Origin: Actinomycetota bacterium | Lineage (GTDB): Bacteria > Actinomycetota > Acidimicrobiia > Acidimicrobiales > MedAcidi-G1 | Assembly (NCBI GenBank): GCA_014381745.1 | Contig: JACNLA010000028.1 | Span: 1 to 64,000 of the forward strand | DNA length: 64,000 bases | Direction of reading: 5' to 3' | Part shown: positions 47,745 through 54,450 of the stretch, one piece after another | How positions within the stretch are numbered: the first letter of the stretch is position 1 | How the letters are laid out: each line of letters opens with the position of its first letter | Program-made: the position numbers and the translations under genes | Notes under the pieces: model-generated | Databases searched by the model: none | Told to the model about the DNA's origin: nothing | What the model saw: the letters and a program-made list of their open reading frames with translations, nothing else

Positions 47745-48350
47745 GTGTCGGTTTCCGAAGTCCTGGCGGCGCGGAGAACCTGCCGCTCCTTCGCCCCGGA
47801 GCCACTGGCCGATTGGTTGCTCGACGAGCTCGTCGACAAGGCCAGACGGACGCCGACGGCCGGAAACTGTCAGGGAGTGGAGTTCCTGATACTTGAGGGA
47901 ACCGATCAGGTGACCTCGTTTTGGGACACAACCCTGCCATCCGACAGGCGAGGTGGGTTTCCATGGCCCGGTCTCCTGTCGGCACCGGCCCTGGTGGTTC
48001 CCTTCGGCCTTCCAGAGGTGTACCTGAAGCGCTACAGCGAAAACGACAAGGTCGCCAGCGGCATGGGTGGAGACAAAGCCGACTGGGCCGTTCCCTACTG
48101 GCTCACCGATGCGGCGTTTTCGATGATGGCGTTACAACTGTTGGTCGTGGAGCAGGGCCTGGGGTGCTGTTTCTTCGGCTTGTTCGACAACGAAGCGGCG
48201 GTTCGGCAGAGGTTTGGTGTGCCAGATACCGCCCGCTCTCCGGGGGTGCTCGCAATCGGCCATCCCGACGAGGCTGCGTTGCGCCCGAGCAGGTCCTCGA
48301 GCCGGGTCCGCAGCCCCCTTGCGACCGTGGCCCATCGGGGTAACTGGTAG
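47745..48350 (+). CDS. Nitroreductase-family oxidoreductase
   Basis: A 201-residue flavoprotein of the nitroreductase fold. RRTCRSFAPEPLADWLLDELVD is the FMN-phosphate region, APTAGN-like TPTAGNCQGVEFLIL follows, and GLGCCFFGLFDNEAAVRQRFG is the second flavin-contact region. The C-terminus is basic. The substrate is unknown. GTG start; 26 bases after the hypothetical gene. Confidence 0.85.
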   Translation: MSVSEVLAARRTCRSFAPEPLADWLLDELVDKARRTPTAGNCQGVEFLILEGTDQVTSFWDTTLPSDRRGGFPWPGLLSAPALVVPFGLPEVYLKRYSENDKVASGMGGDKADWAVPYWLTDAAFSMMALQLLVVEQGLGCCFFGLFDNEAAVRQRFGVPDTARSPGVLAIGHPDEAALRPSRSSSRVRSPLATVAHRGNW

Positions 48351-48433
48351 GCCCGATTCTTGACGTCGGATGGGCCACGGTTAGGGTCCAGTCGAGTCTC
48401 GCCAAGCCAGCCAACAGCCGACACGGAGCAGCG

Positions 48434-48835
48434 ATGCCAACCCCTAAGCAGGTGCCAATAGTCGAGTACCTGCGGGTCGGAAGCCGCCCGTATCTGAGGG
48501 CGCAGGAGTGCGGCGGCTGCGGTGCCCGATACTTCGACCGTCGTAACGCCTGTGCAAAGTGCGGCAAGGCCGACTTCGTGAACGCACGGGTGTCAAACCA
48601 TGGGGTGTTGCGCTCGTTCAGCATCGTGCACAGGGCAGCGCCGGGGATACCGGTGCCCTACGTGTCGGCACTGGTGGAGACCGACGATGGCACAACGGTG
48701 CGATCCAACCTGATCGACTGTCCCGCCGACCCCGAACACGTGAGCCTTGGCATGAAGGTACGCCTGGCCACGTACGTGGCAGGGACCGACGACGCCGGAA
48801 CAGAGTGCGTGGCCTTCGGATACAGGCCGGCCTGA
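48434..48835 (+). CDS. Zinc-ribbon/OB-fold (DUF35) acyl-CoA-associated protein
   Basis: A 133-residue DUF35 protein. A rubredoxin-like zinc ribbon binds through CGGCGARYFDRRNACAKCG (two CxxC pairs), followed by an OB domain (VLRSFSIVHRAAPGIPVPYV). DUF35 proteins pair with thiolase-like enzymes in acyl-CoA or sterol metabolism and help channel or bind acyl-CoA. It lies 36 bases before the thiolase gene, which supports such a pair. RBS-like ggagcagcg upstream. Confidence 0.88.
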   Translation: MPTPKQVPIVEYLRVGSRPYLRAQECGGCGARYFDRRNACAKCGKADFVNARVSNHGVLRSFSIVHRAAPGIPVPYVSALVETDDGTTVRSNLIDCPADPEHVSLGMKVRLATYVAGTDDAGTECVAFGYRPA

Positions 48836-48871
48836 ACAGAAGCTTCAAACCCTCAGCGAAAGGACGATTCC

Positions 48872-50074
48872 ATGTCAGGTGACTCAGTCTGGGTGCTAGG
48901 AACCAGCATGACGAGGTTCGGGCGCTACCCCGACCTGGATGCGGTGGACCTCGCGGCCAGGGTCTGCCTCGAGGCCTTCGCGGACGGTGAGGTAACGGTC
49001 CACGACATGGACGTGATGGCTGCAGGGACCCTCTTCCAGGCCAGCACCAGCATGGGCCAGCGGATACAGAAGCAGATCGGCCAGACCGGGATACCGGTGT
49101 TCAACGTCACCAACGCGTGTGCTACCGGCGCTACGGCCATCCGGGCCGTTTACCTGTCGATCAAGGCGGGGGAGGCATCGATGGGCCTGGCGGTCGGCGT
49201 CGAGCAGATGGGCAAGATGGGCCTGCTGGCCGGCGGTTCCAAGGAGGAGGCCAACGTCTACGAGCCTTCGGGTCGCTACGGGGCGGTCACCTCCATCGAC
49301 GGTGTTCTGGGCACGGCAACCATGCCGGGCGTGTTCGCCCAGGCCGGGATGGCCTACGCCTATGAGAACGACGGTGTCGGCTTCAAGCAGTTCGCCAAGG
49401 TCGCCTACAAGAACCACCTCCACTCCACGCTGAACCCTCTGGCCCAGTACCAGAAGGAGTTTTCGCTGGAGGAGATCATGGGGTCGCCGGTCCAGAGCTA
49501 CCCCAACACGCTTCTGATGTGCTGCCCGACAGGCGACGGGGCGGCTGCTGCGGTTCTGGTGTCCGAGGAGCGTCTGCGTTCGATGCCGAAGCGGGTTCAG
49601 AAGAGGGCGGTCAAGATCGCCGCGTCAGTGCTCACGTCGGATCCATGGGTGGAGAGCGGTCAGGTCCAGCCCGATGTAAATACCCTCACCCGCAACGCCG
49701 CCAGCCAGGCCTACGAGAAGGCAGGCATCGGCCCCGAGGACCTGGATCTTGTGGAGTTGCACGACTGCTTCGCCACGGCCGAGCTGATCCACTACGACAA
49801 CCTGGGTCTGTGTGAGCCGGGCGGGGCTGGCGATTTCATCGACTCGGGCGCACCGTTTCGAGACGGGACCACACCGGTAAACGTCTCAGGCGGGCTCATC
49901 TCCAAGGGTCACCCGATCGGGGCGACCGGTGTGGCAAACGTGTTCGAGGTGACTACCCACCTGCGTGGCGAGGCGGGGGACCGTCAGATCAAGGGTGCCA
50001 AGGTCGGCCTTGCACATGTGATCGGCCTGGGCTCATCGTGCGGGATCCATATCCTGGAGAAGGCTGCCGCCTAG
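48872..50074 (+). CDS. Thiolase-family protein (SCP-x/lipid-transfer type)
   Basis: A 400-residue thiolase superfamily protein. The nucleophile cysteine is in VTNACATGATAIRA (residue near 88). ELHDCFATAELIHYD and the C-terminal SGGLISKGHPIGATG carry the catalytic His residues, and GLGSSCGIHIL near the end replaces the CxGGG of biosynthetic thiolases. This is the pattern of thiolases that act with DUF35 partners in side-chain or acyl-CoA cleavage or retro-aldol reactions. The true substrate is unknown. aaagga upstream. Confidence 0.9.
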   Translation: MSGDSVWVLGTSMTRFGRYPDLDAVDLAARVCLEAFADGEVTVHDMDVMAAGTLFQASTSMGQRIQKQIGQTGIPVFNVTNACATGATAIRAVYLSIKAGEASMGLAVGVEQMGKMGLLAGGSKEEANVYEPSGRYGAVTSIDGVLGTATMPGVFAQAGMAYAYENDGVGFKQFAKVAYKNHLHSTLNPLAQYQKEFSLEEIMGSPVQSYPNTLLMCCPTGDGAAAAVLVSEERLRSMPKRVQKRAVKIAASVLTSDPWVESGQVQPDVNTLTRNAASQAYEKAGIGPEDLDLVELHDCFATAELIHYDNLGLCEPGGAGDFIDSGAPFRDGTTPVNVSGGLISKGHPIGATGVANVFEVTTHLRGEAGDRQIKGAKVGLAHVIGLGSSCGIHILEKAAA

Positions 50075-50298
50075 TCAGGCCGTCGGAGTCCCGAACGGGT
50101 GGAACGTCGACGGTGACCGCCCGAGGAACGCCCCATTGATGCTCGGATCCCTATGGCGATTGCGGTGATGATGCTTCCCGCCACCGGGATGATCAGAAAG
50201 GCCAAGTCCCGCTGAGAGTTGGCGGCAGCCCGGGGGGCAATCGAAGCTGACCCCCCGGTTCGATCAGCCGTGGTCGTGGCAGAGGCTTCCGTTCCCGG
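50071..50298 (-). pseudogene. Possible membrane-anchor remnant with no start codon
   Basis: An open frame of 75 codons with no ATG, and no plausible GTG or TTG start before the membrane segment, bounded upstream by a stop at 50299-50301. The product would be a Thr/Ala/Ser-rich stretch, a strong membrane helix (LAFLIIPVAGSIITAIAIGI) and an Arg-rich tail, exactly the C-terminus of a surface protein. Its TAG shares ctag with the convergent thiolase stop. It may be a decayed gene end or a chance frame. Confidence 0.3.
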
Positions 50299-50315
50299 TC
50301 ACCGGTCTGAACGGT

Positions 50316-50489
50316 TTAGACGTCGGTGATGCCGGCCTGGATTGCAGCGACGACATCGTCGGGCACTGAGTCCATGCCGTGGACATCGGCTGCGTGGGCG
50401 GCTGCTGCCGCCATCACGTCTTCAACCGTCTCGCCCAGCACCACGCCGTCACAACCCGGAACCACGCTTCCACACGCAAACTGCTTCAT
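50316..50489 (-). CDS. DUF1059-family small protein (first copy)
   Basis: A 57-residue protein matching the DUF1059 family: MKQFACGSVVPGCDGVVLGE, with cysteines at 6 and 13, and AAAHAADVHGMD with two histidines five apart. The four residues could bind a metal (inference). The function of the family is unknown. The ATG at 50489 is preceded by a perfect aggagg at 6 bases; an upstream ATG at 50507 is therefore less likely. A paralogue lies just upstream. Confidence 0.88.
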   Translation of the reverse strand: MKQFACGSVVPGCDGVVLGETVEDVMAAAAAHAADVHGMDSVPDDVVAAIQAGITDV

Positions 50490-50545
50490 AATCGACCTCC
50501 TGGTCATTGGGCTCCGTTCACCGATAGGTGGACGGGCGATCGACC

Positions 50546-50719
50546 TCAGGTTGGCCGCACCATGGCCCGGGCGTCCTCATCTGAGAGGTCCATGTCGTGG
50601 ACCCCTCTGGCGTGAGTGCGGGCAGCAGCGACAACCGCCTCCGCATTCACCCCCCGCAGAACTGTTCCGCACGGGCACTCGATGCTCTGGCCAACCGGTT
50701 CGTCGTTCACGTGTGGCAT
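50546..50719 (-). CDS. DUF1059-like small protein (second copy)
   Basis: A 57-residue frame, ATG 50719 to TGA 50546. It matches the neighbouring DUF1059 protein in length and pattern: a cysteine pair (CPCG, C15/C17) in place of C6/C13, then AVVAAARTHARGVHDMD against AAAAAHAADVHGMD, with both histidines kept. It is short and easily missed. It lies 56 bases upstream of the first copy and 36 bases from the divergent SARP gene, so the two form a small operon. Confidence 0.8.
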   Translation of the reverse strand: MPHVNDEPVGQSIECPCGTVLRGVNAEAVVAAARTHARGVHDMDLSDEDARAMVRPT

Positions 50720-50755
50720 CCTCGCGGGCGTTGGTTGGTAAATGATTGGTGACGC

Positions 50756-51538
50756 ATGGGCAAGGCAATGACAGATAGGACAGGGGTCACGGCCCGTTTC
50801 TATCTGACCGGTGGCCTGAGGGTGGAGGGCCCGTCGGGAAACTTCCTTGGCGGCGACCTGCCCGGACCCCAGGGACGTCTGGCCCTCGTGGTTCTCTTAT
50901 TGGAGCGCGGACCGGTCTCGCGCGACCGGCTCGCTGAGATGCTGTGGGACGGATCTCCACCGTCAAAGTGGAAGGGCGCCCTTGCATCGGTGGTCAGCAA
51001 GGTTCGGGCATGCCTGTCCGAAGTCGGTCTCGAGGGGACGTCGGTCCTTGCATCTGACGCCGGGACCTACGTGCTTCGCCTGCCGGGAGATGTATGGGTG
51101 GATGTTGAGGATGCCATGGAACGGCTTGACAGAGCCGAGGGTTCCTTGCGTCGCGGCGACGTAGATGTCGCATTGACGGACGCCACCGTTGCCTCGGCCA
51201 TCTTGCGTCGTCAACTGCTACCGGGATTGTGGAGCACGTGGATAGTGGATCGACGCCAGGAACTGGCTGAGGCCCACTACCGCTGCTCATCGGTACTGGC
51301 ACAGGCGTGGCTGGCCAGGAGCGACCCGGGCCAGGCAGCGGTGCATGCCGAAACGCTGGTTGAGTTGGACCCGCTTCGTGAGATGGGTCACCGACTGTTG
51401 ATCGAGGCCGAGTGCTCAAGGGGTGACCGTGGAGCTGCCATGCGGGCACTGCGCCACTGCGAGGATGTGTTGGCCGAGGAACTAGGGGTAGGGCCTTCAC
51501 CGGAGACCGTTGCCCTGGGTGCCAGCATCAGCGGCTGA
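50756..51538 (+). CDS. SARP-type (BTAD-domain) transcriptional regulator
   Basis: A 260-residue regulator. Residues about 14-105 form an OmpR-like winged helix (FYLTGGLRVEGPSG, RLALVVLLLERGPVSRDRLAEMLW, GALASVVSKVRACLSE, GTYVLRLPGDVWVDV). Residues 110-255 form a bacterial transcriptional-activation domain made of TPR-like helices. This is the compact SARP layout of Actinobacteria, often near the genes it controls. It is divergent from the DUF1059 pair and shares a 36-base promoter region with it. The start could be ATG 50756 or 50768. Confidence 0.88.
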   Translation: MGKAMTDRTGVTARFYLTGGLRVEGPSGNFLGGDLPGPQGRLALVVLLLERGPVSRDRLAEMLWDGSPPSKWKGALASVVSKVRACLSEVGLEGTSVLASDAGTYVLRLPGDVWVDVEDAMERLDRAEGSLRRGDVDVALTDATVASAILRRQLLPGLWSTWIVDRRQELAEAHYRCSSVLAQAWLARSDPGQAAVHAETLVELDPLREMGHRLLIEAECSRGDRGAAMRALRHCEDVLAEELGVGPSPETVALGASISG

Positions 51539-51545
51539 TGCCGCC

Positions 51546-53516
51546 TCAGGAGAGGTCTGCCAGGAGTTCCTCCGGAGAGCCGACGGGAGCTAGGCAGGCG
51601 TGGTTCCGACAGACCCAGGCGCGGTCGCCGTAGCGATCCGTCCAGAGTGGCCCATCGCCGCGCTCACCCCAAGCCAGCACCACGCTGGGGAGGTAGGCCC
51701 GCTGAACAACCTCGACCAGGTCCGGCCGGTCGCCCGTCACCACCACCTCGGTGATACCCGAGTGGAACAGATCCACAGCGCCCAGCAGGTGGCCGAACGC
51801 TGTCGGATGTTCGGTCACACGGTCGCCTAGAAGGCTCAGCACACCCTCGGCGGCCTCCGTGTAGCGACGGTCACCCACGAGGGCGCCGAGACGCAACAGG
51901 GCAACAGCGGCCAGGCTGTTCGCAGACGGTTGGGCGTTGTCCATTAGGTCCTTGGGGCGCATAACCAGGGCCTCGGCGTCGCTGCCGGTGGTGTGGAAGC
52001 CGCCGTTGTTGGCGTCGCTGAAGAGCTCCAACAGGACGTCTGCAGTGGACACGGCTGCCTCGGTCCAGCGGGCCTCACCCGTGGCCTCGCCGAGGCGGGT
52101 GAGGCCGTCGACCATCGCAGCATGGTCGGCGGCGTAGCCGAGGTGCCGTGCGCCGCCGTCAGCCTGCCAGGAGCGCAGCCAGCGGTCGTCGGGACGCTGA
52201 AGAACCCCGCAGAGGAAATCGCCGTTGACCCGGGCCGCCTCCAGCCAGTCGGCCCGGCCCGTAGCCATCGCCGCTTCGGCCAGGGTCCCCAGCATCAGGC
52301 CGTTCCACTCGGTCAGGACCTTGTCGTCAAGGCCCGGTCGGATTCTGCTCTCCCGTCGCTCAAAGAGAGCCCTTCTCGCCTTCTCAACCTCGTCGGGCCG
52401 CTTCAGGTCACCGCGAACAGGCCGGTGCAGAATGTTCGCACCCTCGAAGTTGCCGCCCGCACTGACCCCGTACCAGGCGACGGCAGCGTCGGCATCGGAA
52501 CCGCACACCTCGCGAACCTCGGCCTCGGACCAGACGTGGAACTTCCCCTCCACCCCCTCGGAGTCAGCGTCCTCAGCTGACAGAAAACCCCCTCCTGGAT
52601 CTCTCAGGTCCCGCAGCACGTATTCGATGGTCTCAGAGGCCACCTGGAGCCATCGGTCGTGCCCCAGAACCTGCCAACCGTGCAGGTAGGCCCGGGCCAG
52701 GAGGGCGTTGTCGTAGAGCATCTTCTCGAAGTGGGGGACCAGCCAGAACCGGTCGACCGAGTAGCGGGAGAAGCCGCCACCCAGATGGTCGTACATTCCG
52801 CCGGATGCCATTGCGTCCAACGTGGTCGTGAGCACACGGCCCGCCTCCGGGCTACTGGTGGCGGCGATGTGACGAGCCAACGCCTCCAGGTTCATGGCCT
52901 GTGGGAACTTGGGGGCGTCTCCGAAGCCACCCCACTCATCGTCATGCAGCGACACCATCCGGTCGGTGGCAGCGGCGAGGGTCGCCGGTCCCGGGGCTGT
53001 TCCCGCCGACTCCATGTCGGCATGCCGGGCCATGCTGGCAGTCAACTTGTCGGCCATGGCGTCCAGGTTCTGCCTGTCCCCATCCCACGCCTGCATGACA
53101 GCAGCCAGCACCTGCGGGAACGACGCCATGCCACCCCTGGGGGTGTCCGGCCAGTAGGTGCCCGCGTGGAAGGGGCGGCCGTCAGGGGTGCAGAACACGG
53201 TCATCGGCCACCCGCCACGGCCGGTCAACGAGGTGACCGCATCCATGTAGATGGCGTCAACATCGGGCCGCTCCTCACGGTCAACCTTGACGTTCACAAA
53301 CCCGTCGTTCATGAGTGCCGCAATCTCGGCGTTCTCAAACGACTCATGTGCCATGACGTGGCACCAGTGGCAGGCGGAGTAGCCCACCGACAACAAGATG
53401 GGCCTGTCCAACTCGACAGCAGCCGCAGAGGCCTCCGCACCCCACGGATACCAGTCCACGGGGTTGTCGGCGTGCTGTCGCAGATAGGGGCTGGTCTCCC
53501 CGGCGAGGCGGTTCAC
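51546..53516 (-). CDS. DUF255 thioredoxin-fold/(alpha,alpha)6-barrel protein (YyaL-like)
   Basis: A 656-residue protein. The N-terminal thioredoxin domain opens [21 protein letters not shown] and has the active-site-like CHWCHVM motif. The rest is an all-helical barrel of the glycoside-hydrolase-like type ([19 protein letters not shown] and [20 protein letters not shown]). Homologues (YyaL, SPATA20) are widespread and uncharacterised in bacteria. The GTG at 53516 begins the family's conserved first residues; a longer frame to 53741 overlaps menA and is rejected. Confidence 0.9.
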
Positions 53517-53586
53517 AGGCGCCTGACCATACCGGTCCGTAGCGCGGGGATGGCCCCGTTTGCCCAGTCGCTGGCAGACTGTCGGT

Positions 53587-54450
53587 ATGCAGCGCTGGAT
53601 CTTGGGGGCACGTCCCCGAACACTTCCGGCGGCGGTCGTCCCGGTGGCGGTCGGAACCGCCGTAGCGACAGGATCCGGCGTGATCTGGTGGAGGGCCCTG
53701 CTGGCACTCGTCGTGGCGCTCGCCCTGCAGGTGGGGACCAACTACTCCAACGACCTGGCCGACGGTGTTCGCGGAACCGACGGTCCGGACAGGACGGGAC
53801 CAAGGCGACTCGTCGGGTCGGGTCTGGCAACGCCGGCAGAGGTGAAGGTGGCCACGATCGCAGCGTTTGCCGTAGCCGCAGTCGCGGGCCTCGTGCTGGC
53901 GATCGTCGTCACCCCGTGGTTGCTCCTTGTGGGCATCGCTTCGATTGCGGCGGGCTGGTTGTACACGGGGGGTCCAAGGCCGTACGGCTACATGGGCCTC
54001 GGCGAGGTGTTCGTGTTCGTGTTCTTCGGCCTGGTCGCGACGGTGGGCAGCTCATACGTTCACACGAGGGAGATCACCGGCCTGGCGGTGCTGGCCGGCT
54101 CGGCTGTCGGGCTGTTGGCGTGTGCCCTACTGGTTGTGAACAACCTGCGCGACATACCAACCGATCGGACTGCCGGCAAGCGCACCCTCGCCGTCAGAAT
54201 GGGGGAGAGACCCACGAGGATCCTCTATGTGGTCCTGGTGGACGCCGGGCTGGTACTGGGGTCACTGTGTGCCCTGGAGAGGCCCCTGTCCCTGCTGGTC
54301 ATGGGAGCAGGCCTCGCAGCAGGGCCTGCCATCAGGGCCGTTCTGCGAGGCGCCGCTGGAGTCGATCTGATTCCCGTACTGGGTAGAACCGCCCGGACCC
54401 AGGTCGTAGCGGGCACCCTCCTGACGTTGGGGCTGGCACTACCGATCTGA
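53587..54450 (+). CDS. menA: 1,4-dihydroxy-2-naphthoate polyprenyltransferase
   Basis: A 287-residue UbiA-superfamily prenyltransferase that attaches a polyprenyl chain to dihydroxynaphthoate in menaquinone synthesis. [14 protein letters not shown] opens it, the first Asp-rich metal motif is [14 protein letters not shown], and the second region is [22 protein letters not shown]. About eight membrane helices are expected. ATG at 53587. It converges on menG, the next step, so both menaquinone genes adjoin. Confidence 0.92.

Follow-up and report, generated by a model that had tools for sequence, protein, structure and literature searches.

A regulator of the SARP (Streptomyces antibiotic regulatory protein) family and two genes for proteins of at most 57 residues lie together in a stretch of 64,000 nucleotides (hereafter the window) at positions 1 to 64,000 of contig JACNLA010000028.1, from an Actinomycetota bacterium of the MedAcidi-G1 lineage (assembly GCA_014381745.1). 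The SARP and the micro-gene next to it (gene 2) form a conserved module; this pair is the constant unit, and the second micro-gene (gene 1) is a related, optional accessory. The locus is very probably a self-contained cassette in which the SARP activates the transcript of gene 2, together with gene 1, and in which gene 2 encodes a Cys2His2 micro-protein. SARPs have been studied as activators of antibiotic clusters. The comparisons described below suggest a so far undescribed regulatory module in which the only target in view is a single tiny protein that probably binds metal; the SARP group concerned occurs in several phyla and seems to serve this one protein of about 50 residues. The DUF1059 family, to which gene 1 belongs, gains a regulatory context and a testable handle in the form of a promoter, an activator and four residues that are all defined.

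In the proposed mechanism, the small SARP would bind as a dimer to two heptamers spaced 11 bp apart in the gap between the divergent genes and would recruit RNA polymerase to a weak -10 box lacking a -35 box. The transcript of gene 2 and then gene 1 would thereby be switched on, and gene 2 would yield a Cys2His2 micro-protein with a beta-beta-alpha fold that probably binds zinc or another metal. Binding by the SARP, activation, metal binding and autoregulation are steps that we infer from the conserved pair, the ligand-type residues, the spacing of operator and -10 box and the scarcity of further sites.

Conservation of the regulator and gene 2

An alignment of four SARPs, used as the query against 84,980 species genomes, found 59 loci. 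A divergent relative of gene 2 was found directly upstream of the SARP gene in all 18 of the best loci and in none of the remaining 41. Within Actinomycetota the module occurs in Acidimicrobiia, Rubrobacter, Thermoleophilia and Marmoricola. Beyond this phylum it was found in Chloroflexota, Gemmatimonadaceae (Gemmatimonadota), Rokubacteria and the Comamonadaceae Ramlibacter and Variovorax (Pseudomonadota), one of the Comamonadaceae copies being located on a plasmid. SARPs have been called exclusive to actinobacteria in a 2024 review (PMC10972967). Searches with gene 2 in 395 genomes of the class and 396 genomes of the phylum gave 37 distinct loci scoring at least 50 bits, 33 of them with the SARP. 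Because module members supplied the query models, these counts show how sharply module and non-module loci separate and not an unbiased frequency. The preliminary description of the locus had proposed looking for the arrangement in other genomes; three other genomes of the order also have the full triad (G009, G010 and G099), G110 carries the module without gene 1, and the pair of SARP and gene 2 extends to several phyla.

The gene that follows gene 2 is variable. A canonical DUF1059 gene stands there in 15 of the 50 modules collected, and many modules have no close gene following gene 2. In three modules (L146, L147 and L151) a tautomerase-family gene of 62–70 residues begins within about 15 bases after gene 2 (Pfam 1e-14 to 3e-13 in the two of three that were tested). 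It stands where the window has the DUF1059 gene, and the second place of the operon is thus interchangeable. In L145, L148, L152 and L065 (the module of G110), which belong to one early-branching module group, gene 2 is followed by small proteins that have no Pfam match and start MAFVQIMEFEME..., MSFVYIVVAKMG... and MTYVIATQLKPT....

Predicted operator and promoter

The gap between gene 2 and the SARP gene contains a regular array. Read on the strand of gene 2, 49 of 50 divergent gaps contain CAA repeated with a period of exactly 11 bp, compared with a mean of 2.3 and a maximum of 5 in shuffled gaps. Other spacings from 5 to 18 bp were seen in at most four gaps (0 to 4), and the 11-bp spacing was seen in none on the other strand. 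After dereplication, in which SARPs more than 70% identical were removed, the period was present in 39 of 40 gaps. A NANNNT element directed toward gene 2 lies at +14 from the last CAA in 30 of the 39 dereplicated arrays, any other offset accounting for at most six. The consensus of the module gaps reads CCAA followed by a TAGTAT-like box, and the site in the window consists of two heptamers with the 11-bp period, 8 bases and then GAGGAT (50723-50718). No sigma-70 promoter with a -35 box was found. Studies of SARP sites have reported direct repeats with an 11-bp period, the 3' repeat lying 8 bp from the -10 box (PMC10936776), and a poor -35 element (PMC10936776, PMC10972967); the geometry predicted for the gap matches this published rule. 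The possibility, raised earlier, that the site of the regulator is elsewhere is not borne out, as the predicted site lies in the divergent gap with its -10 box toward gene 2.

The explanation that the genes are chance neighbours or a genus-level oddity, with two unrelated small genes beside an unrelated regulator, is extremely improbable. All three genes are missing from six congeners and the locus is empty in congener G003, but the pair, with its divergent arrangement and its operator, is found again in several phyla, and the counts for linkage and operator refute this reading.

The position of the promoter also bears on the start of gene 2. Because the predicted -10 box overlaps the ATG at 50719, the likelier start is GTG 50710, seven bases downstream of the box, which gives a protein of 54 residues; a leaderless transcript starting at or next to this GTG is likely. 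A GTG is likewise present at the corresponding alignment position in the related genome G010. In most other modules the start codon lies 15–45 bases beyond the -10 box and there is a Shine-Dalgarno sequence. The second frame as first drawn, from the ATG, is thus retained as a conserved frame with a probable change of start.

It is unlikely that the SARP serves to repress or autoregulate its own gene and that its effect on the micro-genes is only incidental. A Streptomyces SARP has been listed as a repressor (PMC10972967), and the operator in the window ends 6 bases ahead of the SARP start codon. The orientation of the repeats and their fixed distance from a -10 box directed toward gene 2, however, correspond to the geometry of an activator. 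Under activation of gene 2 by the SARP, the same closeness to the start codon means that binding would probably limit transcription of the SARP gene as well.

Few candidate sites were found away from the module. The host genome (2.2 Mb in 44 contigs) contains two strict two-repeat sites with a -10 box, one of them at the module, and the reversed control gave one. The other strict site (G000:C4:15506) was rejected, since the count equals the control rate and the site has no clear intergenic setting. In 22 module genomes, the host included, the three-repeat site gave 28 matches, 18 at the module and 10 elsewhere. Since the reversed control gave 6, the frequency of sites away from the module is close to that expected by chance.

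A SARP that controls a biosynthetic cluster, as classical SARPs do, and stands at this locus by chance is very improbable. In a quick tree the module SARPs form one group with a Shimodaira-Hasegawa-like approximate likelihood ratio test (SH-aLRT) value of 99, and two Streptomyces plasmid SARPs (L170 and L171) that adjoin fatty-acid/polyketide-type biosynthetic genes fall inside it on a long branch. Against this, the neighbours in the window are genes for a DNA polymerase III alpha-like protein, a nitroreductase, a thiolase and a DUF255 protein, which is no secondary-metabolite cluster setting, and no further operator copies are evident; the explanation was rejected on these two grounds. A plasmid search with the SARP returned mostly Streptomyces SARPs, and the two inspected (H1 and H6) lie among biosynthetic genes without a micro-gene. 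No relative was found in the viral contigs searched with the SARP.

The nearest known arrangement among those compared is the AfsR-afsS pair of Streptomyces coelicolor, in which a SARP directly activates an adjacent small-protein gene via 11-bp direct repeats and a weak -10 box (PMC10936776, PMC10972967). The likeness lies in a SARP with an adjacent small-protein gene under an 11-bp-repeat promoter, the target being compared by arrangement and not by homology to AfsS. Unlike AfsR, the present SARP is small and stand-alone, is divergent from its putative target and occurs in several phyla. The SARP-LAL regulator PimR has been shown to have an operator of heptameric direct repeats with 4-bp spacers and the consensus CGGCAAG at pimM, which was called its unique target (PMC5930380). 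The module shares the heptameric repeats, the 4-bp spacers and the CAAG core, whereas PimR is a large SARP-LAL over a polyene cluster and the -35 region lies outside its operator. The recruitment of RNA polymerase by small SARPs that lack extra domains has been listed as an open question (PMC10972967), for which the module may provide a minimal system.

The regulator and the small proteins

The preliminary description recognized a BTAD-domain regulator, in agreement with the Pfam result (2.6e-17). Pfam makes no call on the N-terminal part. A profile of five relatives of the regulator, compared with the PDB, matched AfsR over positions 4-240 (2e-17) and EmbR over 21-246 (3e-18). As these matches span the DNA-binding domain too, the regulator, with 260 residues, is a small SARP, a class in which an N-terminal OmpR-type DNA-binding domain is followed by BTAD in about 250–300 residues. 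No sensor domain is present in the regulator.

Gene 1 is a full member of DUF1059 (PF06348), matching positions 1-56 of the 56 in the model at 2e-18 and 66.8 bits (cut-off 21.1). Its motif is C-x6-C-x18-H-x4-H, and C6, C13, H32 and H37 are invariant in a 15-member alignment. A strong Shine-Dalgarno sequence, AGGAGG, precedes its ATG. The AlphaFold2 model has a mean predicted local distance difference test score (pLDDT) of 96.7 and a beta-beta-alpha fold with a short helix, for which Foldseek and VIA-align gave no convincing structural relatives.

Gene 2 matches the same Pfam model partially (positions 12-50 of 56) at 3e-4 and 21.4 bits, just above the cut-off. At an E value of 0.01 the model is matched by 24 of 27 gene 2 relatives, and some relatives lie near or below the Pfam cut-off. 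The canonical C-x6-C pair of DUF1059 is replaced by C-x-C, and the motif C-x-C-[GS]-x17/18-H-x4-H occurs in each of the 38 modules that were checked. Alignments of gene 1 and gene 2 are nevertheless homologous (hhalign E 1.2e-8 over 32 columns), and C-x18-H-x4-H is common to both. Gene 2 is therefore best called, on these alignments, a CxCG subtype or diverged relative of DUF1059. The earlier observations that both proteins keep a Cys pair and a His pair, and that the Cys spacing differs between them (C6/C13 and C15/C17), are both upheld. Literature searches, mostly outside subscription journals, gave nothing functional on DUF1059, which two papers name once each, and no mention of it together with BTAD, and nothing functional under its Pfam and COG names.

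Several observations bear on the protein encoded by gene 2. Among 27 relatives the only invariant columns are C, C, H and H, which are C15, C17, H36 and H41 in the window. The AlphaFold2 model (mean pLDDT 87.6) shows strands at 11-14 and 20-23 and a helix at 26-41, in a beta-beta-alpha arrangement with a short helix. The predicted structure thus combines two Cys, two His and the beta-beta-alpha fold of a Cys2His2 zinc finger, and the protein probably binds zinc or another metal. A sequence search of the PDB with gene 2 found only weak matches to CxCG stretches of C122R proteins (E 0.07), and a search of a defence-system library gave nothing relevant. Reports also exist on very small haloarchaeal zinc-finger micro-proteins with C(P)XCG motifs, including Brz, which regulates the neighbouring bop (PMC2253796, PMC11241148). 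Compared by description only, they resemble gene 2 in size and in the C(P)XCG-type motif; as far as those sources were accessible, their proteins differ in having two such motifs (four Cys) and not Cys2His2, and no SARP partner is described.

Between four triads, ratios of nonsynonymous to synonymous differences per site (pN/pS) were 0.12–0.31 for gene 1, 0.38–0.58 for gene 2 and 0.40–0.74 for the SARP, values that are rough because synonymous sites are near saturation in the more distant pairs. The frame of gene 2 is conserved and, judged from these ratios, under purifying selection. The earlier reservation that the second frame might not be conserved has thus been answered, gene 2 being the more constant partner of the regulator. 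The reading first put forward, of a putative small metal or redox site and a regulator dedicated to the micro-genes, is supported.

A further explanation, which extends activation of gene 2 by the SARP and is not its opposite, is possible but doubtful. The micro-protein would be a sensor or feedback partner of the SARP that binds metal or an oxidant and then the SARP, raising or lowering its activity. The two genes would form a sensing switch, with gene 1, the tautomerase or the other small genes as its output. The SARP itself lacks a sensor domain, gene 2 stays constant while the next gene varies among DUF1059, tautomerase and small proteins not matched by Pfam, the operator searches of the host and module genomes show no other evident target, and the gene 2 protein and the SARP co-diverge. 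In many modules, however, there is no evident cargo gene and the switch would control only itself, and co-divergence is also expected from joint inheritance. It is accordingly a tentative suggestion that regulation is mutual between a SARP devoid of a sensor and the Cys2His2 micro-protein that is its only target, in a widespread switch in which sensing of metal or oxidant by the micro-protein gates the SARP.

Some observations weigh against activation of a metal-binding micro-protein by the SARP. The operator in the window has only two strict repeats and its -10 box, GAGGAT, is weak, and the strict motif search is blind to degenerate sites elsewhere. Foldseek gave no confident structural match for either small protein, and the match of gene 2 to the C2H2 zinc finger of AFV1p06 by VIA is weak, with Z 4.2 and 1.9 A over 42 residues, and ribosomal proteins score equally well. 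No SARP lies near four relatives of gene 2 (L155, L156, L160 and L194; 53–66 bits), one of which (L194) is cut by a contig end, a weaker relative (L199) is convergent, and the link is thus not absolute. Distances of gene 2 and the SARP correlate (Mantel r 0.48, 0 of 2000 permutations), in a test with no power to separate interaction from joint inheritance.

Locus layout, gain and loss

The three genes (Table 1) lie between a thiolase gene and a gene with DUF255 and thioredoxin domains. The two small genes are separated by 56 bases, as first described. They had also been said to face the regulator across 36 bases; the length between the drawn start codons is correct, but the genes are divergent (back to back), with the start codons flanking the gap.

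Table 1. Positions of the features at the locus, numbered from the first base of the window
Feature	Position	Strand	Remarks
Thiolase gene	48872-50074	+	
Whole cassette	50075-51545	n/a	Absent between the same two genes in congener G003
Gene 1	50316-50489	-	DUF1059 protein, 57 residues; optional cargo of the module
Gene 2	50546-50710	-	CxCG-type DUF1059 relative, 54 residues from GTG 50710; putative core target of the module
Gene 2 as first drawn	50546-50719	-	57 residues from ATG 50719
Predicted -10 box (GAGGAT) for the transcript of gene 2 and gene 1	50718-50723	-	Fixed offset from the last repeat
Predicted SARP operator	50732-50749	-	Heptamers CCAATCA (50749-50743) and CCAACCA (50738-50732)
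SARP regulator gene	50756-51538	+	260 residues, DNA-binding domain and BTAD
DUF255/thioredoxin-domain gene	51546-53741	-	

At the empty site of G003, about 14 bp separate the thiolase gene (97% identical) from the DUF255 gene, the two being arranged tail to tail, compared with 1471 bp in the window. The thiolase gene also adjoins DUF255 in G004 and in G009, the module of G009 being on a different contig, and the module of G010 adjoins DUF255. Empty and occupied sites among relatives indicate that the cassette comes and goes as a unit.

Other relatives of gene 2 show different surroundings. L156 and L160 are good CxCG micro-gene relatives (66 and 64 bits) with no SARP nearby, and their regulation may differ. 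Many genomes of an actinobacterial family with large genomes (f114, with L195 and L196) have a single CxCG relative of about 43–52 bits; in the two cases whose surroundings were read, no SARP lies beside it. In L175 (G686:C3, 376-1647), CxCG micro-gene relatives are present on both sides of the SARP gene, the divergent one scoring 80 bits and the other, beyond the SARP 3' end, 52 bits. In the window, a nitroreductase-family gene, a ChsH2-like zinc-ribbon OB-fold gene and the lipid-transfer-type thiolase stand in a run (47745-50074) that is typical of a lipid or sterol degradation set.
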